From Haliotis asinina (Eukaryota > Mollusca > Gastropoda > Lepetellida > Haliotidae): a DNA stretch of 64,000 nt. The notes beneath the pieces are model-generated. The model was given only the letters and a program-made list of their open reading frames with translations, ran no database searches and was not told the DNA's origin. This document shows, piece by piece, positions 3,971 through 64,000 of this stretch (positions are counted from its first letter, which is position 1; each line of letters starts with the position of its first letter). The stretch lies in NCBI RefSeq assembly GCF_037392515.1, contig NC_090291.1, forward strand, positions 20,562,001 to 20,626,000, read 5' to 3'. The position numbers and the translations under genes were made by a program.

Positions 3971-6900
3971 TGCTAATGGAGATATGATCCCAGATCTCCT
4001 GGCAGAGTTCACAAACAAGTCTCGTGCCTTTTGGATTTTCAGGTAAATTTGAGGATGAGAATGTTCTATGTTTCTATAAAAAACATGTACCGTAGAGCCC
4101 CAGAATGTTGAGGTCAATTGTTGAAGCCTGGTAGACTTAAAAGGCAGTGGCACAACTCGATTTTGCTTTTTAATCTGGGCAACACAATTCACGAAAAGGC
4201 ACACTAAAAGACGTAGAAGGAGTTCTTGCATATATTTTTGTAAAGTTTTGAATCTGACAGTTTGTCTGTATAATTTCCTCCAAATCTGAGACGCACTGCA
4301 AACAAATGTTCACAACTGCCAGCACTTTCTTTGTTGACACTGGCTAGCTGAGTTGTAATGGTGTCTTATCAGATTAGCTACTGTGAGAATGCAGACGCCT
4401 GCAAAGGGAGGTAATAAAAGCCATAGATGCATACAGAGTATATAGGAGATTTATTGGAATGCATACCCTGGAGATATCGAGGATGTGAAGGTGTGTCATT
4501 GTGTGATTGCTGGGCAACTTTTTATGTGGGAGCCACGGATTACCCAACAGTTTAACTGAATCCACTGTCTTGCAAAGAGCATTATTGCGAGGGATGACTG
4601 TATTGCCATTTGGCATTGTCATCAGACCATTGTATTTCTGTACGTTACACTGGCGTAATACCGCTAGACATATGAGATCATAATGGTTTGCAGTAATGAG
4701 GTCACAATGCTAATACCTCTGTCACAATTTTATTAGATCTTGCTTGACTCGCGGAAAGCTGAGACTCATTACACTGTATACTGTTTCTATCACTTTATGT
4801 TGGACAGAGATAAACAGAATACTTAACTCACTTCCATGAAATGCAATTTTTTTATAATTCGTGAAGATTTAGTGTAAAAAGTTGCTTTTGCTTATTTGAT
4901 TCCAAATCATTAACTTGTTTAATAAAAAATGGTATTACACGGAAGTTCATTTAGTGTCCTCTGTGAATTTGACGTCACTACAAGACAGTTCCAGCAGACA
5001 TCCTTTGCCTCCTGTATGTGAATGACTCTGCCCCTTGTACTGCAGCAAGCACAGAAACTACACTGTGCAGTATCTACACAATGGAAGCTCCTCTGAACTG
5101 CCAGAACTGCATGTCCCACAGGCATCGGGATTCCTGGACCTAAATGATGACATGGCGCCAGGTAACTGTATCCTTATCTCTCAAGTGTGGAATAATTGTT
5201 CACAAGTCATAATTATCAACTAATTTTATAATTGTCCATACTGTAATCCACCTCTTTGTACTTTTCCTTATCCAGACTCATGCTTATTTGTCCCCTCTCT
5301 GTGTGAAGTTAGTGGAACACTCGAAGTCGCTTGCAGTTCCCTTCTTTTGAAGCGGGTAAACAATCACCCTCACCACAGGCAGCCTCCTCGTTTCACATGA
5401 CAGGCCCTGTTTGCCACTCTCTCCTCCATTAGCCAACAAGACAGTTGGAGTCAACTTGAGTTCCTATACGGCATTTAATATCCTTTTATATTGCGGTCCT
5501 TTACACAAAATTTAGCAGCATATGGCTTTGGTCCGTATTAATTATCATTACAATTTGAAATTGTGGATAAATTTACATATATTTTTTTGAGCATGTATTT
5601 CTCCTGGTGTAGTTTATGACTGTCTGTGGCTGTTCCGTATTATTATGTCCGACTTGCACAGTTATTTGTTTGTATTTGTTTAATATTCAAATACGTGCTA
5701 AAATTTTTTACATAGACTCTCTCAAGTCATGTCTGGCAGTTTTATACAAATTGCATCTGGTAACCATCTGCTAACTACTGCTGATCTTTAGGTTCCTGGT
5801 GAATCACCAGATGTACTCTGGGGGTGCCTTTTGGATAATATGGAGACTAGGTCCTAGTCCAGAAGAGGTCATCATCAGAATCCATGTCATCTCAACCGAA
5901 GAGTTGAAGTCATCGATAACTAATGCATTCATGGAGGAATAGCGATGACTCATTGGAGAGTCGTTGGCTTCTTAGATTACGATTGGGCTAGACCTCACTT
6001 CATCATCAAAGGAGTTCTATGATATGATCCATGATGACTTCACATCTTCATGTTCCCTTACGGTTCCGGACAACTTTTCTATAATTTCCCACATGCATGC
6101 ACTGACGCATTCGAGGAATACAAACTCTTCTACTAGACCAACACATGCATGCACTGACGCATTCGAGGAATACAAACTCTTCTACTAGACCAACACATGC
6201 ATGCACTGACGCATTCGAGGAATACAAACTCTTCTACTAGACCAACACATGCATGCACTGACGCATTCGAGGAATACAAACTCTTCTACTAGACCAACAC
6301 ATGCATGCACTGACGCATTCGAGGAATACAAACTCTTCTACTAGACCAACACATGCATGCACTGACGCATTCGAGGAATACAAACTCTTCTACTAGACCA
6401 ACACATGCATGCACTGACGCATTCGAGGAATACAAACTCTTCTACTAGACCAACACATGCAGAATCAACTTATCAACATTCACCGTTAAATACCAGAAGT
6501 TTCCTATTTCGAAGAAGAGAAGATGATTTATCTGTTCTACTTACTTCGAAGAAGGATAAACAATTCAAGCATCTTACAATAACATCAGGTTGTTGTGCAC
6601 CAGCAGCGAGGAATTCAACGCATTTATTTTGACACTTCATGGAACCCGGTTACTACAGTCAACCTGTACCAACATGGGGAAGTGGGGGAATTTCCCTGCA
6701 ACATCTGTATAGGATAACAACGGTATAATCTTCAGTTGAAGAACACCGACACAACGACTAGGAGGACAGTCTACGTATGTCAGTGTTAAGTGGTGGAAGG
6801 TTTTGGGCACTTCTACACAGTCATCTATGCATGTGTTCACTCGTGTATCTCCTAGACAAGCCTGAATGCTAGTGAGGGAATCATCAACTGCACAAGATTT

Positions 6901-12900: not shown

Positions 12901-15900
12901 ATAAACAGTCACTGAAAAAAGTGTTTTGGACAATATTCAAGGATGTCAGTTTCCAGAAATATTAACTAATGGTATTCATGACATTAGAAAGCCTAAGTGT
13001 ATAAATTGCAGGTCAGCCATCTGTGTTCTATGCGGTTTTTCGCTTGTTGAGGGATAAGTGTCAGAGACTGGGGAATTTTGTAAGTCACAAATGATCGAAT
13101 GGTCATTGGTTGCTCAAAGGTCAGATGATGCGGCCTACTAGGGTTTGTTAGAGTCAGAATAAGCAGTGAAGGACCCTACTGACCCTAAATTTACTTAGAC
13201 TGCTTTTGATTGACTTTGTTGTGCTAAATGGTGGGTTGTATTGTCACCTTTTCTATGTAGTGAAGATGCTGAATCAGGCCAGCTGTATGTCTGTGTTTCA
13301 GTTGTCAGTGGACTGTGCAATGACAACTGCAAAGATGGACACCAGGTAGGTCTAGTGTCACCTGTGTTCAGTCTGTAAAGTCTTGGTATCAACAGTCATC
13401 ATACAAGTACATTCATTTTAAATAAGATAGCCATACTAAAGCAGCATTTTCTCTATTCAAATGAAAATGAAATACATGAACTGAATGCAGAGTGTTATGC
13501 TGTGATTTAACCTGTTTGTTGTTTCGCAGCCGTATGGCGTGAATCAAGTGGGTCCTGTTGTCCGATTCACCACAACACGAGCTGATGGTGATACACAGAT
13601 TGGAGTAGGTGAGGCAACTATCGGTGACAGTGAATCACACTCAGAAGAGAAGGTGTCATTCATTAAATTAGCATGGTCAGGATTAATGGCCATGATTTTC
13701 AGGATGCACTAATGTAGCTAGAGTTTTACATTTTGAAGGAGTTTCTGATTTCATGCAGTTATGTGGTTAACAAGGTCAAACATCAAACTTTAATAGCAAA
13801 TAGACATTAACAGTCCAGTAGACATAAGCTGCCTAGTGTGTGTTCCACTGTGATGAGTTATCCCCCCTTATCTTCTACAGCCTCTCAGCTCACGCAGACT
13901 GCCTACTTCTCCCTCCAGCTTCCATTTGTACATTTTGGTCTTGGACAGATGCCCAACTTTGTTGACAAGTTGGAAGTTGGTGTACAACACCCCAAGGACA
14001 AGGTACCCATATTTACTAGCTAAGACAGGTCTGAGTCGGCCCTTTTGAACAGTGGCTAGATGCCAAAAATATTTTGGAATATTTTTTGTTGCTCCAAGGT
14101 ACATTAATCACAATCTTTAATGGGGTATATATTTTGTTAAAGCAGTTAGTTAATGTAAAGGTTACATTTCTATCACCAGTTATTTTCATGATGACATAGA
14201 TGGTATATATTGCTATATATTTAGATATGTGAGGCAGACCACAAAGTGGTGCCTTTTGTTATTTACAAAGTTTTGGCATTTCTATTTTTCCTGGTTTCCA
14301 TGGAAACAATTCAGACTTAGTCTCAAAAGGGAGGGATTGGCTTTGTTTCCCAAGCACAACTCGAAAACCATTTGATATCTTTCAACAGATCTTGGCAGAT
14401 ATATGAGGCAGATCTTGAAGTGGTGCCTTTTGCTGTTTACAGATACATGGCATTTATATTTTTCATGACTTCCATGGAAACGATTGAAAAAACGAGTATA
14501 AAAAAATATCAAGTAACCTTCAGATGATTTGTCATTTCAAATATGTTGGGGCCGGGGGGGATATGTCATCTTCTGATGACTTTTGTTATACCCCCAGCAT
14601 GTAATGGGTTTCGTTTCCGGAGCAGAACTCAAAAATCATTCAATATTTTTCTGCAAAACTTGAGAGATATCTGTGGCAGACCCTAAAGTGGTGCCTTTTA
14701 CTATTTACAGGTTTTTGTGATTTATCATTTTCCCAGTTTCCATGGAAACGTTTTGGACTTAGTCTCAAAATAGAGGGATGGGCTTCGTTTCCAGAGCCTT
14801 ACTCAAAACCTGTTCAATATTTTTCTGCAATTTTTTCTAGATATGTGTGGCAGACCCCAAAGTGGTGCCTTTTGCTATTTACAGGTTTTTGTGATTTATC
14901 ATTTTCTCAGTTTCCATGGAAACGTTTCCAGATTTTGTCTCAAAATGGAGGGATGGGCTTTGATTCCGGAGCAGAACTCAAAATCCATTCTTTATTTTTC
15001 TACAAACCTTGGTAGATGTACCAGTCAGAAGCCATAATGGTGCCTTTTACTAATTACAGTTTTTTGTGATTTCTTGGTTTCTCGGTTTCCATGGAAACGA
15101 TTCAGACGTTGTCTCAGAAATGAGATGTGTGTTTTGTTTCTGGAGCAGAACTCAAAACCTTCTTAATATCTGTCAGTGTAACTTAGTAGATATGTGTGGC
15201 AGACCCCAACGTGGTGCCTTTTAGTATTTACAGGTTTTTGTGATTTATTATTTTCTCGGTTCGATGAACACATTGTGGACTTTGTTTCCGGAGCACAACT
15301 CGAAAACATAATTCATATTTTTCAAAGGATCTTGGCAGATATATGATACAGATCTTGAAATGGTGACTTTTTCTAATTACAGATATATGGCATTAATATT
15401 TTTCATGAATTCCTTGGAAACAATTCAGACTTGGTCTAAAAACACAATAAGTAACAGTCCTTTCAAATATGTGGGGGCTGGGGGGATATGTCATCTTCTG
15501 ATGACTCTTGTCTATTTTTCCCTGCATGAAACATTTCATGTCAGAATTAGTACTGCTGTGCTTCCCAGTGCAACCACATAACTGTTTAACTGTATCTCCA
15601 AGGCAGAGAAAGCATCTGTTGTATGCCATCATGTTTCCAGCCTCCGCGTCACAAGGAGTGGACTCAGCTGATTCCAAACTCTCAGCTGGTGATTATACCT
15701 TATCCACTGGATGATCCGTCATCGTAAGTGTCACTTTTACACACCTGTACACAATTACATGCACACATTAGAGCATGAGGACGGTTGTAGTTCAGGGGGC
15801 AGACTAGAATGGCACAGTGACGCCAAAGCATTGTGATGCAATGCAAAAGTGTTTGATTTCGAGGAGGCAGACTAGAATGGCGCAGTGATGCCAAGGCATT

Positions 15901-27300: not shown

Positions 27301-30300
27301 TTGTGGATTATTCTAAACGAATACATCGTATTTTTGGTGGCCACCATGCCTACCTGTATACAGGTCGCTGTGACACAATATATAATATAACCTTGCAGTC
27401 TGCTGTTGTTGATGATCAGTGAACAATGTCACGAAAAACACAAACCAAGAGGTTGCAGCTCCGTTCATTGAAAGTATGATACACGTGAGTGAGGGAGTTT
27501 ACTCCACATTTATCAATATATTCCAGGGGACACCAGAAACGGGATCCACACATTCTGCCCATGTGAGGAATCGAACACCGTCACTAAGAAGATTAAATAT
27601 GTATAAAGACTATCACAAATTAAAGGCATTCAACCGAAAAGATAGTTGTCATGCAGAAAGAACTTCATATTTGCCAATAATGGTACCTGTCTCTTTCCTC
27701 ACAACGGAACAATTATAATTTTTATATAACAAAATATACTGAGAACTCCTATATACATCCTTTCTCCACATATCGCCATAGGTCTAAGGTACCTTTGTCC
27801 GAGCTCATTTTGACAAAAAGAAATGCGAAGGTCAACAGGTGAATATGCATGACTAATGGTCGACGGGACGTTTCGACCTCAGCAATAACTTACAAGTCAC
27901 AACATTATAAATAAGCACCTGCCATTGTTATCACCTGCGCCACTCCAATGCGCATTCTCCCCGTGTACCGCCATGAATAGACAGCACGTACCTTCTTAGC
28001 TTTCCGAACTCTCTCCTCAAGCTTCAGCTGCTTTTCCATGGCCTCGGCATACTTCGCCATTGTGGCGGACTGGGCCTCACGTTTGAAGGTGTCTTTGTAG
28101 TGCCTGAAGATGCAAAATGGTTGAATGAGTGTGATTTTAAGTCGCTTTTATCAATATTCCAACAATATCACGGCGAGGGACACAGAAAATGGGCTTCACA
28201 CATAGTACCCACAACATCACTGTGGAGAATCGAACTCGGGTTTTCGGCATGACGAGCGGACGCTTTGCCCAATAGGCTACCCTACTGCCCCACAAGAGGT
28301 AGAAGTGGAATCAGTTTTATCATTAGTGTTTCAAACTTCATGCAAACGTTTCAGCTACATAGGTGAGAGACTTCTTTTAACTCTTAAGTAGAAGAACACT
28401 AAATTAGCAAGTGTATTATACATAGAGGTTTTTACGATATGGGCGAATTAGCCCACATCAAACACGTTGCAGTCATAAGAACAGTTTTCATAACATCTGC
28501 CGTAGTAAAATGGATTTGTGAGAATGCAATATTGGTGAAACAGATGGATGAAGCCATGGAAACATACCAAGTCTGGAAGATACGAAGCAGAAAAACGTAC
28601 GACACAGCAGCATTCCCTTTCTACACACGTCATCAGTGTAATGCATTCCAGATAGGACTTGTACTACACAAGGACATTACGTCGATTATGTAAGAAAGGT
28701 GGAAGCGAATAGAGAAAACGCTTTATGACGGGGATTATCGTCATCGGTGAAAACATGCAGATGCGCACAATAGTTAGAAAAGTGTATGTGCGTGCATGGG
28801 TGCGCGCGCACACGCACACGCACGCAAACACACATACACACATTCTCAAAAGTGGGCACCCTTCCTTTCTCGAAAGCTGTGGGTTAGAATCCCTTTCGCC
28901 TGGTATCTTTTCCTATTATTGGGTCTCCCTGAAGAAATAAACATGTACAAAAGACCAGTATCACCATCCTCCCATTCTGCTGTACATGAGTGAGTATGAT
29001 TTTACGCCGCTTTTAGCAATATTCCAGCAATACGACGGGCGACTCTAGAAATGTGCTTCACACATCGTGTCAGTGTGGGGCATTGAACCCGGAGTGATGA
29101 GCCAACGCTTTAACCATCAGGCTACCCCACGTACGCACATAAACACGCACGCACGCACTCACACACAAAAACATCACACACCGACACGTGCAACTACAAA
29201 TACATACATCAATAGTAATGTATATATCACGTGATATGTAAACCGTACACAAACACAGACATGGGTCTGACTTACTCACTTTTTCACCATGGTCGCCTCA
29301 TTCAAAATTCTGTTGGCAACTTTGTTGTGCAGCGGCGCCTTGTCAGTCGGTTCATTGAATATCTCTCTTAACACGGTGCGGAACTCGTGGTACTCGAAGT
29401 CTGTGAATAAGCCCCATGGAATATCACAGCAATCATGTTCACGTTACCGACAAAGGCATAAAGAAGACGCTTCTAAACAGGTAAACTTTATAGGTGTGAA
29501 GTGCCCGACCCCTCTCTCGTACTGACTGGTAATGTCAATTGTATGGCATTCATTATCGTTACAAAACAGTGTAGTGCAGCAGGTACTGCCAGGTAGGTAC
29601 TGTTTTCATATGTAGGTGCACATTTTGTCTGAGACTGACGATGGATTAGGCTAGTGACATACTTCTCAACAGCCCTCTCAAGGGGATTATTGAAAGATAC
29701 TTACTGTTACAGGGTCAAAATTGTCATATTTTACTTCTAGTTTTTACTAAAATTCGAAAAATATTCTACAATGTCTATTTGACCTTATTTTACTCTTTTC
29801 GTTATAAGACATATATTATTGTAATCATTAAGCCGTCACGGTCAGGCGCACCCTCGGGAGTCGGGGCAGTATGTACATTGTGAGGCTCAGCCTCCTTGTC
29901 ACCATTGCAACTGTAAACTTAAGTTGTTTTCATATGTAGGTGCACATTTTGTCTGAGACTGACGATGGATTAGGCTAGTGACATACTTCTCAACAGCCCT
30001 CTCAAGGGGATTATTGAAAGATACTTACTGTTACAGGGTCAAAATTGTCATATTTTACTTCTAGTTTTTACTAAAATTCGAAAAATATTCTACAATGTCT
30101 ATTTGACCTTATTTTACTCTTTTCGTTATAAGACATATATTATTGTAATCATTAAGCCGTCACGGTCAGGCGCACCCTCGGGAGTCGGGGCAGTATGTAC
30201 ATTGTGAGGCTCAGCCTCCTTGTCACCATTGCAACTGTAAACTTAAGTTGTTTTCATATGTAGGTGCACATTTTGTCTGAGACTGACGATGGATTAGGCT

Positions 30301-32154
30301 AGTGACATACTTCTCAACAGCCCTCTCAAGGGGATTATTGAAAGATACTTACTGTTACAGGGTCAAAATTGTCATATTTTACTTCTAGTTTTTACTAAAA
30401 TTCGAAAAATATTCTACAATGTCTATTTGACCTTATTTTACTCTTTTCGTTATAAGACATATATTATTGTAATCATTAAGCCGTCACGGTCAGGCGCACC
30501 CTCGGGAGTCGGGGCAGTATGTACATTGTGAGGCTCAGCCTCCTTGTCACCATTGCAACTGTAAACTTAAGTTGAACCGCTTCGTTAGTATTGCCATGTT
30601 TGCTATTTATTGTTTCATTTAAAAATCAAAACTGTTGATGTTTCAAATAAATTATCACGTTGAAGTATTTACATAACATTGATCTCCATTTATTGTATTT
30701 ACTCTAAAAGTCTACAATGATAAAATTTATAATAGTTTTCATTATTCAAGCAAGTATTCGAGTTACCTTTATTCTTAAACTAAAAGATAATGACTGATCC
30801 TTAATGTTCATCAACGAATCATAATGAGTCATTTACAGGTATTGTGTCATAACGCCTATGATGTTGATTACTTGTCTTACTTCGATATTCAGTGACTGCA
30901 ACTGATTGGTCTGATTTATTGATTGTTCTGTTTACTGATTGACTGATTGGTTTATTGTTTGTCTAAAGAATAAACAATTCCTGCTTTGCCTGAGACCCCC
31001 CTCTGTTTGTTTTTGAAGAGGTGGAGATGCCCGAGTTAATTCCCCGCAATAGTTCTAAGCATAAACAGGCCCCAACTAAAGCCTGTTTCATTATTAACAA
31101 GAATCTACTACTTTGTATGGATTGTGCGAGTTGATTTCAACACCGCTTTCAGCAATCCGGCAAAGTCACGTCGAGGACACCAAGAATGGGCCTTATACAT
31201 TGTACCCGTGTGGGGAATCGAACTTGGGAATTTGGCGTGACGAGCGAAAGGTTTAACCCCCAGGCTACTCTGCCGTCCCTGAGTACTTGTAACATGTAGC
31301 TTGTGTGATAACGTATTTTTCAGTTAAAATTAAATTTCATCCAAATTCACGACAGCTTTCTTCAAAGTAAAATAAAGATGAATGGGTTTGGTTATTCGTG
31401 TGGCATTTAAGATTCAGAAACAAATACAGTTATGCAGCATGAATGAAGGGTTTTGTACTACGTGGAGCTTTCGTCGTATCAGTTTAAACGAGATAATTCC
31501 ACAGGTCGACATTGTCTTCTTTCCTTCCACACTTATTTCCTTCCTAGACCGGTGAAGATCAGAGATAGAATCGGCCATCAGGAACCCATGCTTGTCGTAA
31601 CAGGCGACTAACGGGATGGGGTGGTCAGGTTGACACACGTGCTCGTATGTCTCTCGCGTAGATCGATGCTCATGTTATTGATCACTGAGTTGTCTGATCC
31701 AGACTCGATTATTTACAGACCGCCGGAATATCGTGGAATAATGCTGAGTGCAACAAGCCAGTCAACCCATATTTCACTCTAACTTCGTTTCGCGTTGATT
31801 TCAGTTGGTTTTTTTTACCCACTCCATAATTAGTTAATGTTAAAAATTGAAAGTAATCAACTCGTATTTATTTTTTTTAGAAATAATCATCATAACGAAT
31901 AACATTTGTAAAACTGCAGAAAGAAAATCGTGGATTACAGTTATACCCATTAACAGTGGGGAATAATGATGCCCTACCCTTCAGTATAAGCTGTACAGTC
32001 AAGTGATCAGTGAGGTGGCATTACGAGCAGACACCAACCTAATGTATCGGCGAGCTTCCTGTTCCATCTGGCTGCCAGTTGTTCTAGAGCGACCGAGTAG
32101 TTCATTTCGAGCCGAGCCCTGTCCTCCATGTACTCCGACAGATACTTCAAGGAC
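21392..32154 (-). CDS. F-BAR and SH3 domain membrane adaptor (N-terminus not found)
   Basis: Nine exons on the minus strand, in transcript order: 32154-32039, 29400-29280, 28103-27992, 26657-26460, 26081-25966, 25069-24949, 23948-23851, 22562-22326 and 21540-21392 with stop. They encode about 420 residues. The first exon reads SLKYLSEYMEDRARLEMNY, the classic F-BAR start. Helical, charged exons follow (HYKDTFKREAQ, KYHRKKHALEHVQ, MRECESAYNDHELQRLL). The end, from VRVVAIRAHWSQQ through LSYDVGQVIKQKL to YGSYPADSVRLL, is an SH3 domain split by an intron. F-BAR/SH3 proteins bind curved membranes and recruit actin or endocytic partners. I cannot name the orthologue; PACSIN, NOSTRIN, PSTPIP and CIP4 have the same architecture but none matches closely. 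Phases fit at all joints except 23851 to 22562, where a small exon may be missed or another donor used. The true start codon lies upstream and was not found. Confidence 0.75.
23405..23625 (+). repeat. SINE, family 1 (near full length)
   Basis: Carries CAGTAACCCATGCTTGTCG, GGGATCGGGTGGTCAGG, ACTTGGTTGACACATGTC, GACTCGATTATTTACAGACC and the end TGCAACTAAACTCACTTA. A short internal piece around the TTCCCAATTG block is missing. It lies in an F-BAR gene intron, antisense to the gene. Confidence 0.9.
24345..24620. repeat. Probable dispersed repeat (TATAGCGCACAAATC ... GCTGGGTGGACTGG)
   Basis: The stretch has TTGTATAGCGCACAAATC near its left end and GTACCCATTTGACAGCTGGG followed by TGGACTGGGACA near its right. 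I recall these two blocks as paired parts of repeats found across marine invertebrates. No second copy is present in the window. Confidence 0.45.
25276..25388. repeat. Small palindromic MITE
   Basis: Ends ACCTATTCTCGAAACG and CGTTTCGAGAATAAGGGT are inverted copies with a mismatch or two, and the interior holds a second short hairpin (CGTAGTCCTACG). At 113 bp with no coding capacity this is a typical MITE. It lies in an F-BAR gene intron. Confidence 0.7.
25610..25750 (+). repeat. SINE, family 1 (3' part)
   Basis: Partial copy running from CCCCAGTTGCGTAGATCGAT through GACTGGATTATCAGACC, CGATCATTTACAGACCACC and CATATAGCTGCAATATTGC. The head is missing. Confidence 0.8.
27480..27600 (-). repeat. 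SINE, family 2 (tRNA-derived), diverged
   Basis: On the plus strand it reads GTGAGTGAGGGAGTTTACTC, TCAATATATTCCAGGGG, CACCAGAAACGGG and GTGAGGAATCGAACACC. The last block is the complement of a tRNA-like B box. The same order recurs at 28.1, 29.0 and 31.1 kb. Confidence 0.7.
28115..28300 (-). repeat. SINE, family 2 (tRNA-derived)
   Basis: Plus-strand blocks are GAGTGTGATTTTAAGTCGC, CAATATTCCAACAATATCAC, GGGCTTCACACATAGTACCC, GAGAATCGAACTCGGG and ATAGGCTACCCTACTGCCCC. Read on the minus strand this gives a tRNA-like head with A and B boxes, then a tail. It begins about 10 bp from the F-BAR exon at 28103, on the upstream side of that exon in transcript order. Confidence 0.85.
28795..28842 (+). 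repeat. CA-type microsatellite
   Basis: Imperfect run of CACACG and CACACA units (GCGCGCACACGCACACGCAC). A similar short run sits at about 29140-29170. Confidence 0.8.
28985..29130 (-). repeat. SINE, family 2 (tRNA-derived)
   Basis: Plus strand: GAGTGAGTATGATTTTACGC, GCAATATTCCAGCAATACGA, GTGCTTCACACATCGTG, GGGCATTGAACCCGGAG and TTAACCATCAGGCTACCCCA. The right end is the complement of a tRNA A-box region. It is in the same orientation as the neighbouring F-BAR gene. Confidence 0.85.
29602..30573 (+). repeat. Three identical 324-bp tandem repeats
   Basis: Units start at 29602, 29926 and 30250, each with GTTTTCATATGTAGGTGCAC, and end in CTGTAAACTTAAGTT. I find no difference among the three. 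The unit contains CCGTCACGGTCAGGCGCACC near its end and shows no coding frame. It lies in the F-BAR intron between 29400 and 32039. Confidence 0.95.
31130..31282 (-). repeat. SINE, family 2 (tRNA-derived)
   Basis: Plus strand: GAGTTGATTTCAACACCGC, GGACACCAAGAATGGGCC, ACATTGTACCCGTGTGGGG, AATCGAACTTGGGAATTTGG and TTAACCCCCAGGCTACTCTG. Order and orientation match the 28.1-kb copy. Confidence 0.85.
31555..31765 (+). repeat. SINE, family 1
   Basis: Contains CAGGAACCCATGCTTGTCG, GGCGACTAACGGGATGGGG, CGTAGATCGATGCTCATG, CCAGACTCGATTATTTACAG and AATGCTGAGTGCAACAAGCC. It is shortened in the middle (CTGACTTGG missing). Confidence 0.85.
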
Positions 32155-53800: not shown

Positions 53801-56800
53801 GTGCAACAGTCTGTAGTTTAGTTATCAAGTTACATGATAACAGGCATGTGCTTTGTGAGTTTTATCTACATAAAATGTATGTACAAATTTATGGGAGTTG
53901 GGGAGATTTGTCATCTCTTAATAACTCTTCTTTTGTTAATGTTAGAATTCTTCATGAGTGTCTAATGCAAAAGTTTAAACTTTCTACCATTGCATTTTTA
54001 TCAGAAACCAAGTTGTGATGATCATTTGCCCAATAACAAGAGCCATACTTAACAATGGCAAAACAATGCTGATAGTTTTATGCTACTCAAAGAAGTTAAT
54101 AAAGGCTGGCTTGTTCAGAAAACAACTACTTTGGGGGTTTCGTTGATAGAACGGTTGACCACCTGTAGGACTATTCTGAGGCTATTGCTGTCCAGAGTCA
54201 TTCCTAAGCAGTATTTAGGACCAAAACAGCACTCTAGAATGAGTCACTTGCTTTATTTTTAACTTATGCACTTAATAGTTATGTTATCAGTGCATTACCC
54301 ATTACAGATCAGCATGATGCCATGATACCAGAAACTGCCAAGATCCTCTCATGTTCTTCATATCTGTACAACCTTTGTAGATCTCTCAGGTTTATAGAGC
54401 AGGTGTATCATATGTTTTAATTAGGAATTAAAATCTGTGATTTCAGGTAGCCAGGGGTAACTGTTTTCTCAACATTGAGAATGGCCCCCACCGAGGAACC
54501 ACCTGTGTTCTCTATGCCCTGAAGAAATTTACAGGGGGTCTTGGTGATGATGACGACAGGGAAAAGGGGGATAACTTCACATGGAAAAAATATTTTACTC
54601 AGGTACGTCACAGGGGCCTTGTGAGAAAGTTTCTATTAAGTTTCTTAGGTTTTGAGACCTACCTTTGACACTTAGTTTATCTGAGTGTAATATGGTATTC
54701 AGAACAATTAGTTATTTGAACGCTGCCAGCATCAAACCCATTACAGTATGTGTGGCCTGATAAAACTAGGAATTTTGAAAACAGATATTCAAATATTCTG
54801 TCCCCACTGAAGAAGCCACTGGGGAGGCAGCACATCTCAGCTGCACTGTGATTTGTTGTATATGTATGTTTTCAGCCAAAAGAATCTACCTCTAATGTTG
54901 TGGCCACAAGAAAAGCCAATGGAGAGGCAGCACATCTCAGCTGCACTGTGATTGGTTGTATATATATGTTTTCAGCCAATAGAATCTACCTCTAATGTTG
55001 TGGCCACAAGGAAAGCCAATGGAGAGGCAGCACACCTCAGCTGCACTGTGATTGCTTGTATATATATGTTTTCAGCCAATAGAATCTACCTCTAATGTTG
55101 TGGCCACAAGGAAAGCCAATGGAGAGGCAGCACACCTCAGCTGCACTGTGATTGGTTGTATATGTATGTTTTCAGCCAATAGAATCTACCTCTAATGTTG
55201 TGGCCACAAGGAAAGCCAATGGAGAGGCAGCACACCTCAGCTGCATGATGATAGATGGTGAATATGTTCTTTGTGGAGGGTCCAAGAATGTTCATCTACT
55301 ATTCAGGAGAAAATGTGAGTCTCAAAACCATTGTTAGAACTACCAGTTATTGTTGTTGTGATTTAAATTATGGATTTTATTTTGTACAATCATTGACTGA
55401 TACATGATTGGTTATATATCATGATGTATGGCTTGTGATACTGCAGACATTGATATACAACAGCAAAATAATCTGATGATCAAGAGCTCAAATCTCTGGC
55501 TTTCATCTTTGTCTGCAAGTGTCTTCTGGTTTTCTTTCAAAACTATGCAGTCATGATGTGATATAACTGGAACATTGTTCAAATGGATGTGTAATCCAAC
55601 TTGCTTGCTCGCATGCACGCATGCACTCACCCAAGCATCCACACACCCAAGCACCCACACACCCACACACCCATGCACTCACTCCCTGGATGTAAGTTCA
55701 TATCAGACTCTACATCTGATCTGTATGATACTTTTTGGACCCGTGAAGGTCCCGGGGTAGATTAGGCCTTCAGCAACCCATACTTGCCATAAAAGGCGAC
55801 TATGCTTGTCATAAGCGGGGACTAACGGGATCGGGTGGTCAGGCTTGCTGACTTGGTTGACATATGTCATCAGTTCCCAATTGCGCAGATCAATGCTCAT
55901 GTTGTTGATCACTGGATTGTCTGGTCCAGACTCGATTACAGTGGACTCTGCCAATATTGGCCTCTGTAAACATCGGCATTCTTTCAACAATGGCACAGAG
56001 TTTCAGTCCCGGCAGAAATGCATTTAATTATCATATAGAAACATCTGTAAACATAGGCTTCTGCCTACTCTGGATATCGGCATTGCTTCAGTCCCAACAA
56101 ACAAATTGTTGTGAAAACAAGTCTGTGAAAACTGGCACATGGAAGACAGCGCAACCCTTTAATGCAATTAGGTCCAAATGATGTAACAACACAATTCACG
56201 GTTACTACCCGAGATTATTCAGAAAGTGTCAGTTAGTGTCTTGTTAATTAGTGTGTGATACGTGTCCCTTACATAGAGTGATGAATAGTGGGCAGTTTGA
56301 CTGTAAACACTGTAACAACACATTTCCCGATATCATTCAGAAACGGGAAATGTCAATCAGTATCTTCTTAACTAGTGAGAGGTATGTGTCACATACATAG
56401 AGTAATTAGGGGGGTATTTAAGGTAAAATCGTATAATGTCAGTAGTATAACAGTCAGTATTGCCAAAATGTCTCGGCCCGCAAAATGTGCAAGATGTGAG
56501 TTGACACTTCAACAAAAAGTGCAGCTGATTTGATAAAATGCCACGACCCACACAGAAAGCATTAGCATCAACATACAGAATAGGCAGACAGACAGTGTCT
56601 GATATTTTGAAGAGGAGAGGTGAATACATTAAGAAGTTTGAAATTAACATGAACGATCAAGAGACAGTACGACTTCCGTTGTGCGTCGGCGTCATAAGGC
56701 AAACTGCCTATCCCGGCACTTTGTCAAAACCAGCATTTTTGTTTGGTCCCGAGAGATGCCGATGTTGACAGAGTCCACTGTATTTACAGACCGCCGCCAT

Positions 56801-59800
56801 ATAGCTGGAATATTGCTGTGTGTGGTGTAAAACTAAACTCACTCACTCACTCACTCACTCACTCACTCACTCACTCACTCACTCACTCACTCACTCACTC
56901 ACTCACTCACTCACTCACTCACTTTTGGTTTCAGTGGATATCAAACGTTACCCCGAGGATCGATTCCGTATTGCACGTGAAGTGTGTACTACTGTCATGG
57001 ATGTACTGGATCAGATGGAGGCTATAGACAGACAAAGGTGAGGTCATCCAGGTATCCATGACAACAAGTTCACAACAGATTCTAGCAACTTTGGCTCTTA
57101 ATTATGATGCTCAAGTCCACTAGTTGCATGGATTATTCAAGATCAGAATGAACATTTGAGAAAGATCCTATAGGATTCATGCACTTCAAAAGTCATACTA
57201 ATTAAGATGATTTGAGACCATAATTGTGATGGGTTGTGGTTCAAAACACTGGTGACATTGCTGCTTGTTTAAATATAGAAAGAACAGTATAGAATTTCAT
57301 GATATATTATGCTGATGTATATGTATTCTGAAGATCCATGACATTGTATATGTATTATGAAGATCTTCCTTAGACCAAATCTGTCATCAGCATTTTTGCA
57401 TTATATCATTGTACAAACAATATTGATCTTTTTAAAACAGATCAATTTGGCATTATGATTCAAATGAAATGGCAAGCTACTCAGGAAGGTCACTCAAATT
57501 ATTAAGTGTACTGCTTGCTGTATTATGTCTGCCTGACATTTCAGTACTGGGTTGATAATGAAGTAATAATTGAAGAACATGGTCCCAAGCTCACTGCACA
57601 ATGGTGACAGGATATATATATATAATATATGTCAGTATTTACTCAGTCTCTGTTATAACGTCTGTTATAATGGCTACATCACTTAATAGCAAAAGGATAC
57701 AAGTGCAGTCCACTCTGTGATTTGAGGACACTTCCCATCAACTGATAATCATCTCCTGGTTCATGTCTTCAACATTTCAGTAAACTGAACAGTGGTTTTC
57801 CTTGATTTAAGATTATTCTATTCTGTTCAATTTCCTTGACAGGCATTGACATTAATCAAATGGGTACAAGCTACAATATCCTTGAAAATATATGGACTAA
57901 AGCTTTGTATCATTTTAGATTTACATGTCACAGACACTTAGCTAAAACTCCTGACATTATTACAGTGAATGTAAGCTGCAATAAATGGGAAAATAGCTAT
58001 GTCTTGTTTTAGATTTCCATGTCACAGGCACTAAGCTGAAAATCCTAGATACAGTTTGTGCTCATATTGAAATGAAACCTTCTCCACCTACTCCCCTGCC
58101 CTTGGTGTCAGTAGTGAGTGACCCAGCATTCTAGCTGTTCTTAGCTCTCATTCCAGAGTATTTCCTGGTGTCATTTAGTGAGTGACTGCAGCATCATAGC
58201 AGTCCTTTACTCTTACACCAAAGTATTTTCTGGTATTTCAGGTTGCTACAGTTCCTGTGTTTGAGTCGGTACACAGCGGTATTTGAGATACTCGCCCCAC
58301 ACCATCAGCATGTAGAAGACCTCTCCCATTTACCAGGGTAGGTTGCCTCAGTGGGCCTTGACACAAGTAACTGAAGCTCCCATTTACCAGAATAGGTTGG
58401 CTCAGTGGGCCTTGACACAAGTAACTGAAGGTCCCATTTACCAGTGTAGGTTGCCTCAGTGGGCCTTGATACACGTAACTGAAGGTCCCATTTACCAGGA
58501 TAGGCTGCCTCAGTGGGCCTTGACACAAGTAACTGAAGCTCCCATTTACCAGTGTAGGTTGCCTCAGTGGGCCTTGACACAAGTAACTGAAGGTCCCATT
58601 TACCAGGATAGGTTGCCTCAGTGGGCCTTGACACAAGTAACTGAAGGTCCCATTTACCAGGGTAGGTTGCCTCAGTGGGCCTTGACACAAGTAACTGAAG
58701 GTCCCATTTACCAGGGTAGGTTGCCTCAGTGGGCCTTGACACACTTGACACAAGTAACTGAAGCTCCCATCTACCAGTGTAGGCTGCCTCAGTGGGCCTT
58801 GACACAAGTAACTAAAGCTCCCATTTACCAGGATAGGTTGCCTCAGTGGGCCTTGACACAAGTAACTGAAACTCCCATTTACCAGTGTAGGCTGCCTCAG
58901 TGGGCCTTGACACAAGTAACTAAAGCTCCCATTTACCAGGATAGGTTGCCTCAGTTGGCCTTGACACAAGTAACTGAAGGTCCCATTTACCAGTGTAGGT
59001 TGCCTCAGTGGGCCTTGATACACGTAACTGAAGCTCCCATTTACCAGGATAGGTTGCCTCAGTGGGCCTTGACACAAGTAACTGAAGGTCCCATTTACCA
59101 GGGTAGGTTGCCTCAGTGGGCCTTGATACGCGTAACTGAAGCTCCCATTTACCAGGATAGGTTGCCTCAGTGGGCCTTGACACAAGTAACTGAAGGTCCC
59201 ATTTACCAGTGTAGGTTGCCTCAGTGGGCCTTGATACACGTAACTGAAGCTCCCACTTACCAGGGTAGGCTGCCTCAGTGGGCCTTGATACACGTAACTG
59301 AAGCTCCCATTTACCAGGATAGGTTGCCTCAGTGGGCCTTGACACAAGTAACTGAAGCTCCCACTTACCAGGGTAGGCTGCCTCAGTGGGCCTTAACACA
59401 CGTAACTGAAGCTCCCATTTACCAGGTTAGGTTGCCTCAGTGAGCCTTAACACACATAACTGAAGGTCCCATTTACCAGGGTAGGTTGCCTCAGTGAGCC
59501 TTAACACACATAACTGAAGGTCCCATGTACCAGGTTAGGTTGCCTCAGTGAGCCTTAACACACATAACTGAAGGTCCCATTTACCAGGGTAGGTTGCCTC
59601 AGTGGGCCTTGACACAAGTAACTGAAGGTCCCATTTACCAGGGTAGGTTGCCTCAGTGGGCCTTGACACAAGTAACTGAAGGTCCCATTTACCAGTGTAG
59701 GTTGCCTCAGTGGGCCTTGACACAAGTAACTGAAGGTCCCATTTACCAGGATAGGTTGCCTCAGTGGGCCTTGATACATGTAACTGAAGGTCCCATTTAC

Positions 59801-62800
59801 CAGGGTAGGTTGCCTCAGTGGGCCTTGACACACTTGACACAAGTAACTAAAGCTCCCATTTACCAGGGTAGGTTGCCTCAGTGGGCCTTGGCACAAGTAA
59901 CTGAAGGTCCCATTTACCAGGATAGGTTGCCTCAGTAGGCCTTGATACATGTAACTGAAGGTCCCATTTACCAGAGTAGGATGTCTCAGTGGGCCTAGAT
60001 ACACGTAACTGAAGGTCCCATTTACCAGGATAGGTTGCCTCAGTAGGCCTTGATACATGTAACTGAAGGTCCCATTTACCAGAGTAGGATGTCTCAGTGG
60101 GTCTTAACACACATAACTGAAGCTCCCATTTACAAGAGTAGGTTGCCTCAGTGGGCCTTGACACAAGTAACTAAAGCTCCCATTTACCAGGATAGGCTGC
60201 CTCAGTGGGCCTTGACATAAGTAACTGAAGCTCCCATTTTGGCAGAGTTATGAGCAGCCAGACATATTTGATCTTCATAGATCTTGTAGTAAGAAAAACG
60301 TGTCATAAAGCAAATAGAAATTATGCTTTGTACTTTTCTATATAAATTTATATTACTTCAGCTTCATCATGTTAGAAAAACTTACCCTCACAAACAAAAT
60401 ATTGCAAAGAATGGAAGGGGGATCATAGAGTAAAGGTGTGATGATCAAAGGCAGATAATTAAATTATTTTGCATCAGTTTAAGATTACCCCAAACATATT
60501 CAAACAATACATAAGTATTGGTTTAACTATATGCCTACACAAGATATATATATCGTGTGTTTTGATCTGCCAGGCCCCAGCTACAGTTTATTACATGGAC
60601 CAGTACAGACCTTGAGCCACCCTCTGACTCCCAGCTGTCAACACTCCCTCCACATGTTGGTATTGAGGTCAGTGTCACTCATCATTCAGTAGCAGTAAAA
60701 TGGCTGTCAGTATCTGCATGGGACATCGTTTAAGTGTATAATGTAAGAGTATCAAATTTTAGGGTGTTGTCATTCTTGTTTGTAGTTTACATCATTCTGT
60801 TTCACTGGGCTACATTTCACAAAGCTACGACTGTTGTTAGTCAGTGTTACTGTAAAACAGGTACAAATGTTATAAGAAACGCATACAAGAGCTTTGTGTA
60901 GCGGGGTCCTGGTCAAAAACAGACTTTAATCAGATTTCTGCTCTAACCATCCAAGTCAGCCATCTCCCCTTATAAACATATAGAAAATTCACCTTAAAAT
61001 TGCAAGTTCTTCCCTGCTTTAAAAAACATGATGATGTCTTTTGATCAGATCAGCTGACGGAGACTGAGTATTTTTGTGAAGAAACAAACACATGTTTGTC
61101 AGTTTCATATGATGCCCATCTCTACTGATTATACCACCCTCCGATGTTGGTGTTGTGATAACCCTGTAAAATAGCACATCCTAGTCAATAGTTTGAGGAT
61201 ACTTTGTTGAATCACAGGAGTTGTATGATTATAACTAATGACTGCATTGGTGTTTTCCTTGTCTAATAATGAGAGTAATAATCATATTTCATGTTCCTGC
61301 TGAAACTGTTTCAGAAGTATGCTATGTTCTTGTTTATCACAGATTGCCCGTGCTTTAGGTTTACAAACTGTTGAATATGAACTCATAGCCCCAACAGCAG
61401 TAGAGAAAAGAATGATTGAGGTAAGGAAGTGAACTTTTATAGTGCATCCTGCAAGCAAGTGGAGAATTTCAGATGACAACCTGGCATGTTAGGATAGTAT
61501 TGAAATGACATGAACAAAAGTTGATATGAAGATGAGACCATATATTGAAAGTAATATATTTGTTCTAAGACAAAAATAGAAAATCATACCCTCAGATGAT
61601 ATAATGTTCAGAAATAATGGTTGCTAAGTGATCTTACCCAGTTTTGAAAAGTGGGATCCTGAGAACTTCTAGCAACCTGCTATGTTTGTGAAAGGTGACT
61701 TAATGAATTATGAGTTCTGGTTTGGTGACTTGGTTCCATGATCATGTGAATAATTGCTCATAATATCAATCACTTGATAATCTGGTGGACACTTAATTAT
61801 TTACACGCAGCAGCCATAACTGGACAGATTTGATCAATATTACCAGTTTCATAATATTCCATTTCATTTGCCACCTGTTTTCAGATCCGCCAAGGTTACA
61901 ACTACGAAGGGGAAGTCCTCTATTTCCTTGACTCGTCTAACTGTGTCATTGGGCTGTTGAAAAAGAAAACTATATGGTAAGGTTGTTTTCAAACTTCACA
62001 GTAGTAAGTTACAGACTCACAAGGAGGCATCAAGAAGCACTCATTTTCTGTAAATGTATTGATATTTCTCATTACATGTTTAAGAATCCTGCTGCCTGAT
62101 TGGCTGGTCAGCTGGTATGTTTAAAGAATCTTGCTGATTGGCCACTTGCTGTCTTCATAAATCTCTTGCTTGTAGAATGGCAATTGTCCATGTCTCCTCT
62201 TCATAGGCAGATCCGTAGCGGGGTTGCAGGGGTGCACAGACACATGCAGTCTTTTGTCCTGAAAGTTTATTAAATGACCATTGAAACTCACCTCCACTTT
62301 CTCAATAGTATGCAACCCCCTTTCTCAAAAAGCCGTGTCTGCCCCTGCACTTTGATTATACTGAAAGTCCAGTAGCAGTCACATGATAGGTCAAACTAGC
62401 AAAAACAACCAAACTGAAACAATCTATATAAACTTGTGAGAACTTGTTACTTACATGTGTCTCTTCCCTTCTGACATTAGCGACATATGCATCTTGTGTG
62501 TGTATTCCAGGTATATCATCTGCAGAGCTACACGTGAGAAGGTCCGAGTCGCATGTCAACTGGCAAAGAAAAACCCAGACACCTTTCACATATCTCGTTC
62601 AATACAGAAGGTAGAATATTGACTGCTTTACATGTTTTGTGTAACTTTTTCAAACAGCCTTATCAAACAGGACTTTTATGGCAAAAAGTGAGGCAACTTC
62701 TGTTGGAGTAAAAGGCTCTCAGATACCTTATTGTTAAGCATCAACATCTATGGATCAGTATGATATGAGGATAGACGTACATGCTCATGTTGTTTATTAC

Positions 62801-62941
62801 TATTCTATAGTTGAGTCTATGTGATTGCTTGTTGTTGTAGAGGTTGTGACTAATGCCTCTGTTTGTTGACAGCTCGAAAAGAGAATGATGGAAATACAGA
62901 TGTGGCTCGGGATGGACGACGACAGTGTGGAGAAGTGGAGG
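44894..62941 (+). CDS. ATP-dependent RNA ligase-like protein (Rnl1/Trl1-type adenylyltransferase)
   Basis: Eleven exons join in one frame: 44894-45054, 45959-46127, 54447-54602, 55176-55314, 56935-57037, 58242-58337, 60574-60667, 61343-61420, 61885-61976, 62511-62610 and 62873-62941, 419 codons in all. The start MAAPMKQETIAADD has a good context (AATATGGCC). Nucleotidyltransferase motifs follow in family order: VARGNCFLNIENG, KKFTGGLGDDDD, motif I as TRKANGE with the candidate AMP-accepting lysine at 55212-55214 (residue 175), LCGGSKNVH, motif III as VFEILAPHHQHVE, motif IV as YEGEVLYFL and motif V as GLLKKKTIWY. This pattern resembles T4 Rnl1 and the ligase domain of Trl1-type tRNA ligases, which join RNA ends through lysine-AMP and RNA-adenylate intermediates. 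I know of an amphioxus RNA ligase, but cannot say this is its orthologue. The last exon may instead read through to a stop at 63020-63022, with AATAAA at 63252; otherwise the gene continues beyond 62941. Confidence 0.75.
47495..47575 (-). repeat. SINE, family 1 head, minus strand
   Basis: CCATTCCCATTAGTCACCTC, TTACAACAAGCATGGGTTAC and TGAAGAGAATGAAATC are complements of the first third of family 1. It lies in the 8.3-kb second intron of the ligase gene. Confidence 0.65.
48886..49048 (+). repeat. SINE, family 2 (tRNA-derived), sense copy
   Basis: The head reads GGGTAGCCAAGTGGTTAAAG, matching a polymerase III A box, and CCCAGGTTTGATTCCTC, matching a B box. GAAGCCTGTTTTGGGTTTCC, TGATATTGCTGGAATATTG and a CTCACTCACTC tail follow. 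The other family-2 copies in the window are on the minus strand. It is not a functional tRNA gene: no closed cloverleaf is seen. Confidence 0.85.
51716..53370. mobile_element. Element with inverted ends ATCCTCGATATCTCC, degraded coding remnant
   Basis: The left edge CCATCCTCGATATCTCC at about 51719 is the reverse complement of the right edge GGAGATATCGAGGATGG at about 53351. Just inside, 51817 onward reads MADDNDGNRCSVKGKEWSDY in one frame and, in another, SLESMKAFKSLKAYEY at about 51930. Both resemble the start of a repetitive molluscan protein family that I associate with YqaJ-type nuclease domains. Little more of that protein remains and the frame changes within it. A second pair of inverted arms is nested at 52903-53327. 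Right-end sequence recurs at 4190-4487. This looks like a mobile element or its deleted derivative; the class is not known to me. Confidence 0.6.
52903..53327. repeat. Foldback segment nested in the inverted-end element
   Basis: CTACACCCTGGATGCATCTA followed by TAAATTTATTACCTCCCTC at 52910-52955 is complementary to GGGAGGTAATAAATTTATC and TAGATGCGTCCAGGGT at 53274-53325. The arms are about 48 bp with a few mismatches. The interior contains a pair of CCAATCA-type motifs in opposite orientation. Confidence 0.7.
54795..55245 (+). repeat. 100-bp tandem duplication of splice acceptor plus catalytic exon start
   Basis: Four units carry TGTTTTCAG acceptors ending at 54875, 54975, 55075 and 55175, exactly 100 bp apart. 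Each is followed by codons for ESTSNVVATRKANGEAAHLS. A partial fifth unit, lacking the acceptor, precedes them at about 54795-54870. Only the last unit continues into the full exon; the earlier ones run into CTGTGATTGGTTGTATAT, that is, back into intron-like sequence. Confidence 0.93.
55939..56780 (+). mobile_element. pogo/Tigger-like DNA transposon (deleted, non-autonomous)
   Basis: This 842-bp element has inverted ends CAGTGGACTCTG / CAGAGTCCACTG and is flanked by TA on both sides, the pogo and Tc1/mariner target duplication. Inside, MSRPAKCARCELTLQQKVQL at 56469 and PTQKALASTYRIGRQTVSDI at about 56544 match the CENP-B/psq-type DNA-binding start of Tigger transposases. The two pieces are not in one uninterrupted frame (a stop follows the first), and the catalytic DDE part is gone. 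It is therefore an internally deleted passenger of this family. Confidence 0.85.
56831..56922 (+). repeat. (CTCA)n microsatellite, SINE tail
   Basis: About 23 CTCA units without interruption. It stops 12 bp before the splice acceptor of the ligase exon at 56935. Confidence 0.97.
58323..60240 (+). repeat. 54-bp minisatellite grown from an exon end and its splice donor
   Basis: Roughly 35 units contain CTCCCATTTACCAGGGTAGG, TTGCCTCAGTGGGCCTTGAC and ACAAGTAACTGAAG. The first unit is the last 15 coding bases of the ligase exon that ends at 58337 plus its donor. Units vary at a few sites: GGGTAGG, GTGTAGG or GGATAGG after CCA; CTC or GTC before CCA; two units carry an extra CACTTGACA (63 bp). Because 54 is a multiple of three and the unit has few stop triplets, long open frames appear on both strands. 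They are not genes. Confidence 0.95.
60808..60912. repeat. Decayed MITE related to the 40.0-kb copy
   Basis: GGGCTACATTTCACAAAGCT on the left and AGCTTTGTGTAGCGGGGTCC on the right are imperfect inverted copies similar to the CAGGGCCCCGTTTCACAAA ends. Confidence 0.6.
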
Positions 62942-64000
62942 GTATTGATGATGATGATTTTTCTTGGTTATTATGAAAACAAATCAATCACCTTGAAGTT
63001 TACTCATCTGCCAGTGGTATAAAAAAACGTAGGGACTGAAAAATAATGAAGTCAGTGTACATCTTTATATTTTGTCTTATAAACTTAATTAGTTTCTTGT
63101 CACATTTGTATGCATTTTCAAAGTTAATAGAAAAAAACGCACACAGTCTAAACATTGTATAGATTGCCAATGTGAATCATATTTCACACACACCCTATTC
63201 ATGGCCTAGTGCATGTTTTCTGTAACACAGATTCTGCTGAATGCGACAAGAAATAAATTAAAACAAAATGCAAATATCCACTTTAAGACAGATGAACGTT
63301 ATAGCAACAATGTCAGGCTATTACATTGTTGTTCAGGAATGTATTCATCAATATCCACATAAAAGAACGATATTCCATTCATCTACAGCTTGTAATAATC
63401 CTGTCTTCTGTCTTTCAACAGTCTAATTTACGGAAACATGATACATCGTTTGAGAATTTTTCACTCTGGTATATACATAATCTCATTGGTCACCCAGGAC
63501 AACGCACCTGTATGATGTCCGCCATTAGTTAGCCAATAATGAGCAACAATCAATCAGTCAAGGCAGTGGCAGTTAATTCTTTGTAGGAAGGATGTTGTTT
63601 TTACACTCATACTTTACGACAGGGTGTAGTCAGTATAGATTAGTAAATCCACACTCATAAACACTTGACTTTTTTACATATCCGCTGTGGAAGTAATTAA
63701 TCAATCAGTGTGTTATCGATTAATCCTTTGATCAATGTTTGTTTTTGTAACTCAGCTGATAAACCCTCTTGCATCACTTACATGCACATATTACATAACA
63801 TGCAATACATTTGCCACTACAGACCTTAATTTATAATGTTGAGTATTCACTCCAGACAGGAGAAATGCCAAATGGGAACCTTTGTCGAGTAATTTTAGTG
63901 GTGTTACCACTAATTATACCTGTTAAAAATTCATTAACTGACCATCAAGTGAATGATGATAAATAACACATGTAGGTTTATACCATCAGACGTGAGTTAC
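62942..64000. other. Right end of window after the last ligase exon
   Basis: The ligase frame stays open to a TAA at 63020-63022 and an AATAAA lies at 63252, so the gene may end here. If instead the GT at 62942 is used, this is intron. No other exon, RNA gene or repeat was recognised. Confidence 0.45.

Follow-up and report, generated by a model that had tools for sequence, protein, structure and literature searches.

How does an intron come to offer the same 5' splice site many times over, and which of the offered donors is used? The question is raised by a 64,000-nucleotide stretch of the abalone Haliotis asinina (GCF_037392515.1, contig NC_090291.1, positions 20,562,001 to 20,626,000 of the forward strand; hereafter the window, in whose coordinates positions are given), where an intron of a gene matching the DUF7920 profile holds a long minisatellite that starts within the end of the preceding exon. 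Work on how splice sites are chosen relies mostly on engineered duplications of a site. Here a single intron naturally offers nine donors that are identical over 25 bases, the authentic one included, and the choice of a later one would be penalised by an in-frame stop. Minisatellites of this sort, named "mirages", have been described at exon-intron boundaries, on both the donor and the acceptor side, in the globin genes and Adh3 of amphioxus (PMC3087553). We consider it highly probable that the abalone array is a mirage-type minisatellite derived from a duplicated exon-intron boundary, with splicing kept to the first donor.

The array and the exon in which it starts

Tandem Repeats Finder (TRF) reported a minisatellite with a period of 54, 35.1 copies and 89% matches at 58324-60239. 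Splitting it at an anchor gave 35 tandem units on the plus strand (58325-60232, the last unit trimmed to 54 bp by hand), each repeating the end of the exon together with the 5' splice-site region, so that the roughly 35 units of 54 bp announced by an earlier, sequence-only reading of the window were confirmed. Unit length is 54 bp in 33 of the 35 and 63 bp in units 8 and 28; once the 9-base insertions of these two are removed, 27 of the 35 units are distinct and each departs from the consensus at 0 to 8 bases. Unit 1 consists of the exon end, at 58337, and the presumed authentic donor at 58338-58343 (CCCATTTACCAGG|GTAGGT, plus strand). When the exon was realigned with the other units, the match between exon end and unit claimed by the same reading was found again, over 13-15 exon bases (CTCCCATTTACCAGG at best), with divergence upstream.

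Of the host gene, nine exons were modelled on the plus strand (54447-62943; the last end is arbitrary), and these join into a 296-residue open frame without stops. Exons 1 to 5 lie at 54447-54602, 55176-55314, 57843-57906, 58242-58337 and 60574-60667, and exons 6 to 9 at 61343-61420, 61885-61976, 62511-62610 and 62873-62943. The fourth (..RYTAVFEILAPHHQHVEDLSHLPG), placed by the nine-exon model and by profile masking, ends AGG|GTAGGT; on its left side the array begins with the final 13-15 bases of this exon. The fifth (PQLQFITWTSTDLEPPSDSQLSTLPPHVGIE) has its acceptor outside the array. The assignment to DUF7920 (PF25536) comes from a 273-residue join without the third exon rather than from the final model; it scored 32.5 bits against a cut-off of 27, with shorter joins falling under the cut-off at 15.6 and 23.9 bits. 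The motifs KANG and EGEV presumably resemble those of ligases, and the gene, labelled a ligase in the sequence-only reading, is perhaps RNA-ligase-like. A 119-residue join had no sequence match in the PDB better than E 0.42, which is weak and chance-like, and the search for homologues by which the exon end could be placed gave no match in phages, prokaryote genomes or viral contigs.

Searches of the abalone's own genome (1.14 Gb in 159 contigs, only the best candidates being scored) placed all 11 matches of the 273-residue join at the DUF7920 locus and all seven matches of the first 477 bases of the array within the array itself. No other genomic copy or paralogue of either array or gene was found among these candidates. 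An exon-by-exon search of the same genome with PF25536 gave no match, and its controls were likewise silent. Genes of the egg-lysin family, a mark of abalones and their relatives, are present in the genome, with seven matches to PF01303 that all exceed its cut-off.

The sequence-only reading had contrasted units that keep a donor-like site with units that have lost the GT. Both kinds exist, and the splice cores of the 35 units fall into six classes where only two had been named: AGGGTAGG and AGGATAGG in 11 units each, AGTGTAGG in seven, AGAGTAGG in three, AGGTTAGG in two and AGAATAGG in one. The GT is in place at the donor position in 21/35 units, has moved by one base in 2/35 and is lost in 12/35, and at the level of sequence the many candidate 5' splice sites foreseen for the intron are borne out. 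Eight decoys carry the 9-mer of the authentic donor (in units starting at 58649, 58703, 59090, 59468, 59576, 59630, 59792 and 59855); both this 9-mer and the first 25 bases are identical in nine units, the authentic one included. On a rough metazoan matrix that was not trained on Haliotis asinina, nine sites (again counting the authentic one) score at least as high as the authentic donor, against 1.4 expected per 1.9 kb of the window.

In the frame of the exon a TAG directly follows the split last codon, so that the tested decoys would terminate the protein after ..LSHLPG; the same immediate in-frame stop was reached from 22 of the 22 decoy donors tested (20 with the GT in place and 2 shifted), and each of the 379 pseudo-exon combinations tested ran into an early stop. 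An RNA spliced from a decoy would thus have a stop right after ..LSHLPG and yield no full-length protein; decoy use could lower the output of the gene without yielding a longer product.

An origin from the boundary would have required that about 54 bp around the 5' splice site, with the last 13-15 exon bases at one end and intron sequence at the other, were duplicated in tandem. A further copy of CTCCCATTT closes the array, which therefore has this short direct repeat at both edges, and the repeat may have seeded the first duplication. Given an origin from the boundary, the intron of an orthologue free of the array would be expected to begin GTAGGTTGCCTCAGTG. The array would then have lengthened through slippage or unequal exchange, to some extent with two-unit blocks as the unit of gain. 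Of the lags computed (1-30), lag 2 gives the highest identity between units (0.935; lag 1 gives 0.916), and units without an in-place GT never adjoin each other (shuffle p ~1e-4; p 0.003 for the 12 GT-lost units alone), a combination indicating that two-unit blocks were probably amplified. No exact repeats of at least 120 bases at offsets of 50-1499 were found inside the array. Constraint on coding and splicing would bear on the first copy only, leaving the others presumably without function and free to decay, and such decay would account for the 12/35 units that have no GT. The first donor is most likely kept by exon definition, which would favour the exon of 96 bases. Special RNA structure was not detected over 58242-58560 (folding z-score 0.49).

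Other explanations of the array

Among the alternatives, the one that fares best, which we nevertheless regard as unlikely, is a functional decoy array, i.e., donors that compete for U1 and tune the amount of protein by unproductive splicing in a manner dependent on copy number. Such a role would suit the eight decoys identical to the authentic donor over 25 bases and the common premature stop reached from all 22 alternative donors tested. However, 14 of the 35 units do not have the GT in place, in an alternation such as dimer duplication would give. The donor core (columns 13-19 of the unit) has six derived alleles in its seven columns, a number that 5 of the 48 windows of equal width also attain, which marks it as neither protected nor clearly targeted. 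The sequence-only reading held that the array could weaken or buffer splicing; in amphioxus, which has the closest cases known, published Adh3 data and reverse-transcription polymerase chain reaction on the globin genes are said to suggest that regular splicing is undisturbed by mirages (PMC3087553). We also considered selection to disarm the decoy donors; it is unsupported, the donor core not being unusually variable.

Slightly less likely still is the reverse direction, in which an array formed at another place in the intron, or brought in by a mobile element, spread up to or overran the exon end, whose last codons would then be repeat-derived. The shortness of the match between exon and unit (just 13-15 bases) is what such an overrun could leave. 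Against it, no further copy of the array turned up among the best genomic candidates scored, and the residues of the exon end together score better on the DUF7920 profile than unknown residues do: the exon as modelled gave 23.9 bits, masking SHLP lowered this to 21.2, cutting the exon nine residues earlier to 13.5 and inserting the array-coded peptide to 12.4. We take these scores as modest evidence that the exon part is probably older than the array. A parallel comes from one of the two helicase loci described below (L041), where the exon part of a similar array lies in HRIGRTGRAG, presumably a universally conserved helicase motif, and would surely be ancestral. The claim of the sequence-only reading that the array was born from the exon-intron boundary is thus upheld as far as the unit does hold the last codons of the exon, and the profile weakly favours these codons as ancestral and the array as derived.

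Several points weigh against a boundary origin with later copies free of function. Masking SHLP changes the score by a small amount, 2.7 bits, and the profile is a distant one. When residues were masked singly, two of six maskings raised the score, that of the L of HLPG (24.8 bits, +0.9) and that of the L of DLS (24.0, +0.1), the others giving 23.8 (S), 22.9 (H), 21.4 (P) and 23.4 (G). The exon-derived part of the units is less divergent from the consensus than the rest (5/420 cells versus 100/1470), possibly a hint that the copies are constrained; counted by variable columns, the two parts do not differ significantly (3/12 versus 18/42, p 0.33). The exon model includes weak donors after the third exon (judged by eye) and at 62610 (score -0.2) and may therefore need correction. 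Finally, the evidence is the sequence of one locus in one assembly.

Two further explanations can be set well below these. The units (CTGAAG.TCCCATTTACCAG|G.GTAGGT) might be read as joined acceptors and donors, forming a ladder of recursive splice sites, and the pyrimidine content before the CAG (0.53-0.71 across the forms listed, which cover 34 of the 35 units) is close to that of the gene's own acceptors (0.53-0.76). We find this very improbable: elsewhere in the window, an equal pyrimidine content precedes about 20% (at a content of at least 0.62) to 35% (at least 0.56) of the CAGs, an AG is followed directly by GT in only 2/35 units, and the 379 pseudo-exon combinations with their early stops tell against it as well. 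Most improbable of all is that the array itself is coding, a reading invited by the period of 54, which keeps one plus and two minus consensus frames open, and by open reading frames of up to 366 (plus) and 369 (minus) residues, and rejected on the stops that interrupt the open plus frame in 7/35 units and on the few silent derived alleles in that frame (3/28 against 23% expected), the consensus unit having stops in the exon's own frame besides.

Known counterparts and frequency in the genome

The likeness of the array to the amphioxus mirages, of which we hold it to be very probably an example, was found in three respects: a tandem duplication, here of 35 units, whose first unit spans the exon end and the donor; a splice signal present in many, not all, units (21/35 with the GT in place, as AG/GT is described as retained in many but not all amphioxus units; PMC3087553); and an authentic boundary that, in the nine-exon open frame, would stand beside its duplicates. 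The two differ in that the array belongs to a mollusc, has 35 units where the BflGb6 haplotypes of amphioxus have 6 and 3 (PMC3087553), and shares its gene with a second array on the acceptor side. Differences in array length between individuals, foreseen in the sequence-only reading, are plausible, and length (and somatic) instability is reported for the amphioxus mirages (PMC3087553). A human minisatellite, that of IFI6, likewise contains splice donors within its units, and two downstream units are described as used, encoding isoforms (PMC4526556; cited also in PMC2572611 and PMC2915984), whereas use of a decoy in the abalone gene would halt translation at once. Unlike the splicing and instability examined in amphioxus, the abalone array and its donor sites are known from the sequence of a single assembly. 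Multiplication of splice-like signals by tandem duplication is also shared with the intron gain described for exon segments that contain AGGT and are duplicated in tandem in the genome (PMC3443670). An intron gained in that way is bounded by copies of one segment; here, the modelled acceptor at 60574 lies past the array end at 60232, which means that the array did not create the intron. On the features compared, the array is a mirage-type member, in an abalone, of a kind already described in amphioxus, which suggests that mirages are not confined to the latter. We recognised no mollusc case in the literature searched, though one may have been published.

The density of arrays in the genome was estimated from 20 arbitrarily picked stretches of 10 kb (200,000 bases). 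Arrays with a period of at least 20 cover 14,698 of these bases, and merged arrays with at least three copies number 27, in 12 of the 20 stretches, one of which (L037) contains an array of 6 kb. As an exon control we used 40 Helicase_C loci out of 92 matches, with about 350 bp per flank and open frames of up to 142 residues without internal stop. The boundaries of these loci are the ends of the profile match, which are possibly off the exon edge, and L080 and part of L050 have a second match.

Arrays with a period of at least 20 were present in 10/40 helicase loci and overlapped the match in two (L041 and L058), both at the downstream end. In both loci the array starts within the exon end and takes copies of the donor into the intron, and reading into it leads to a stop, as at the DUF7920 array. 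The array of L041 (1-362, the gene being on the minus strand) has a 57-bp unit, begins inside the exon end HRIGRTGRAG and reaches the end of the locus, with the GT kept in 5 of the 7 copies found. That of L058 (495-806; 38 bp x 8.3) begins inside the exon end NEIAMVQARG, from which its units are made, and has GTATGT donors at the unit junctions, the GT being kept in 6 of the 7 copies matched by pattern at or after the exon end. Among the remaining loci, L057 has an 84-bp unit in two identical copies (154-321 in locus coordinates) that end 30 bases before the helicase match; this match is on the minus strand, so that it is possibly another donor-side case. In L046 an array ends 55 bases before the helicase match.

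Two loci out of 40 correspond to a 95% interval of 0.6-17%. At the array density measured, chance would put arrays across about 3.0 of the 80 boundaries when L037 is left out and 5.4 when it is included, and in the DUF7920 gene, its boundaries taken as 17, 0.65 arrays would be expected without L037, with a probability of 0.13 for at least two. There is thus no sign of enrichment, and arrays at boundaries appear to be a side effect of the genome's wealth of minisatellites. It is possible, if a little short of likely, that a few per cent of the exons of this genome, in thousands of genes, have their own splice site repeated in tandem. Were arrays of this sort common, as the two loci out of 40 suggest, the roles of proximity and exon definition could be tested at many loci in a native chromosomal setting. 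At a few per cent of exons they would amount to a natural library, from which a rule of the first of n donors and any effect of copy number on expression could be read in RNA.

Further arrays in the gene and the window

The second array of the DUF7920 gene is on the acceptor side (54813-55245, plus strand, TRF; 100 bp x 4.3). It holds four copies of a 3' splice site with the first 70 bases of an exon encoding KANGEAAHLS, together with one partial copy of that exon. The repeated acceptor (..GTTTTCAG|CCAA) occurs at 54876, 54976, 55076 and 55176, and the exon as modelled (55176-55314, plus strand) starts at the last of the four. The complete exon is entered only from 55176; each of the other three acceptors leads to a premature stop. 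In the same gene, a 65-bp duplication (x 2.1, 78% matches; 58103-58234, plus strand, TRF) ends 7 bases short of the exon that starts at 58242, and an intron stretch at 56529-56645 has a translation that, judged by eye, looks like the DNA-binding region of a transposase.

Elsewhere in the window, a 324-bp unit is present in three copies of 100% identity at 29601-30574, which points either to triplication in the very recent past or to an artefact of assembly; inspection of this array and of the one at 14604 led to no gene assignment. A 52-bp unit is repeated 7.2 times with 100% identity at 6090-6461, and an array of 174 bp x 3.8 at 14604-15261 (78% matches) has recurrent TTTACAG and CCATGGAAACG motifs.

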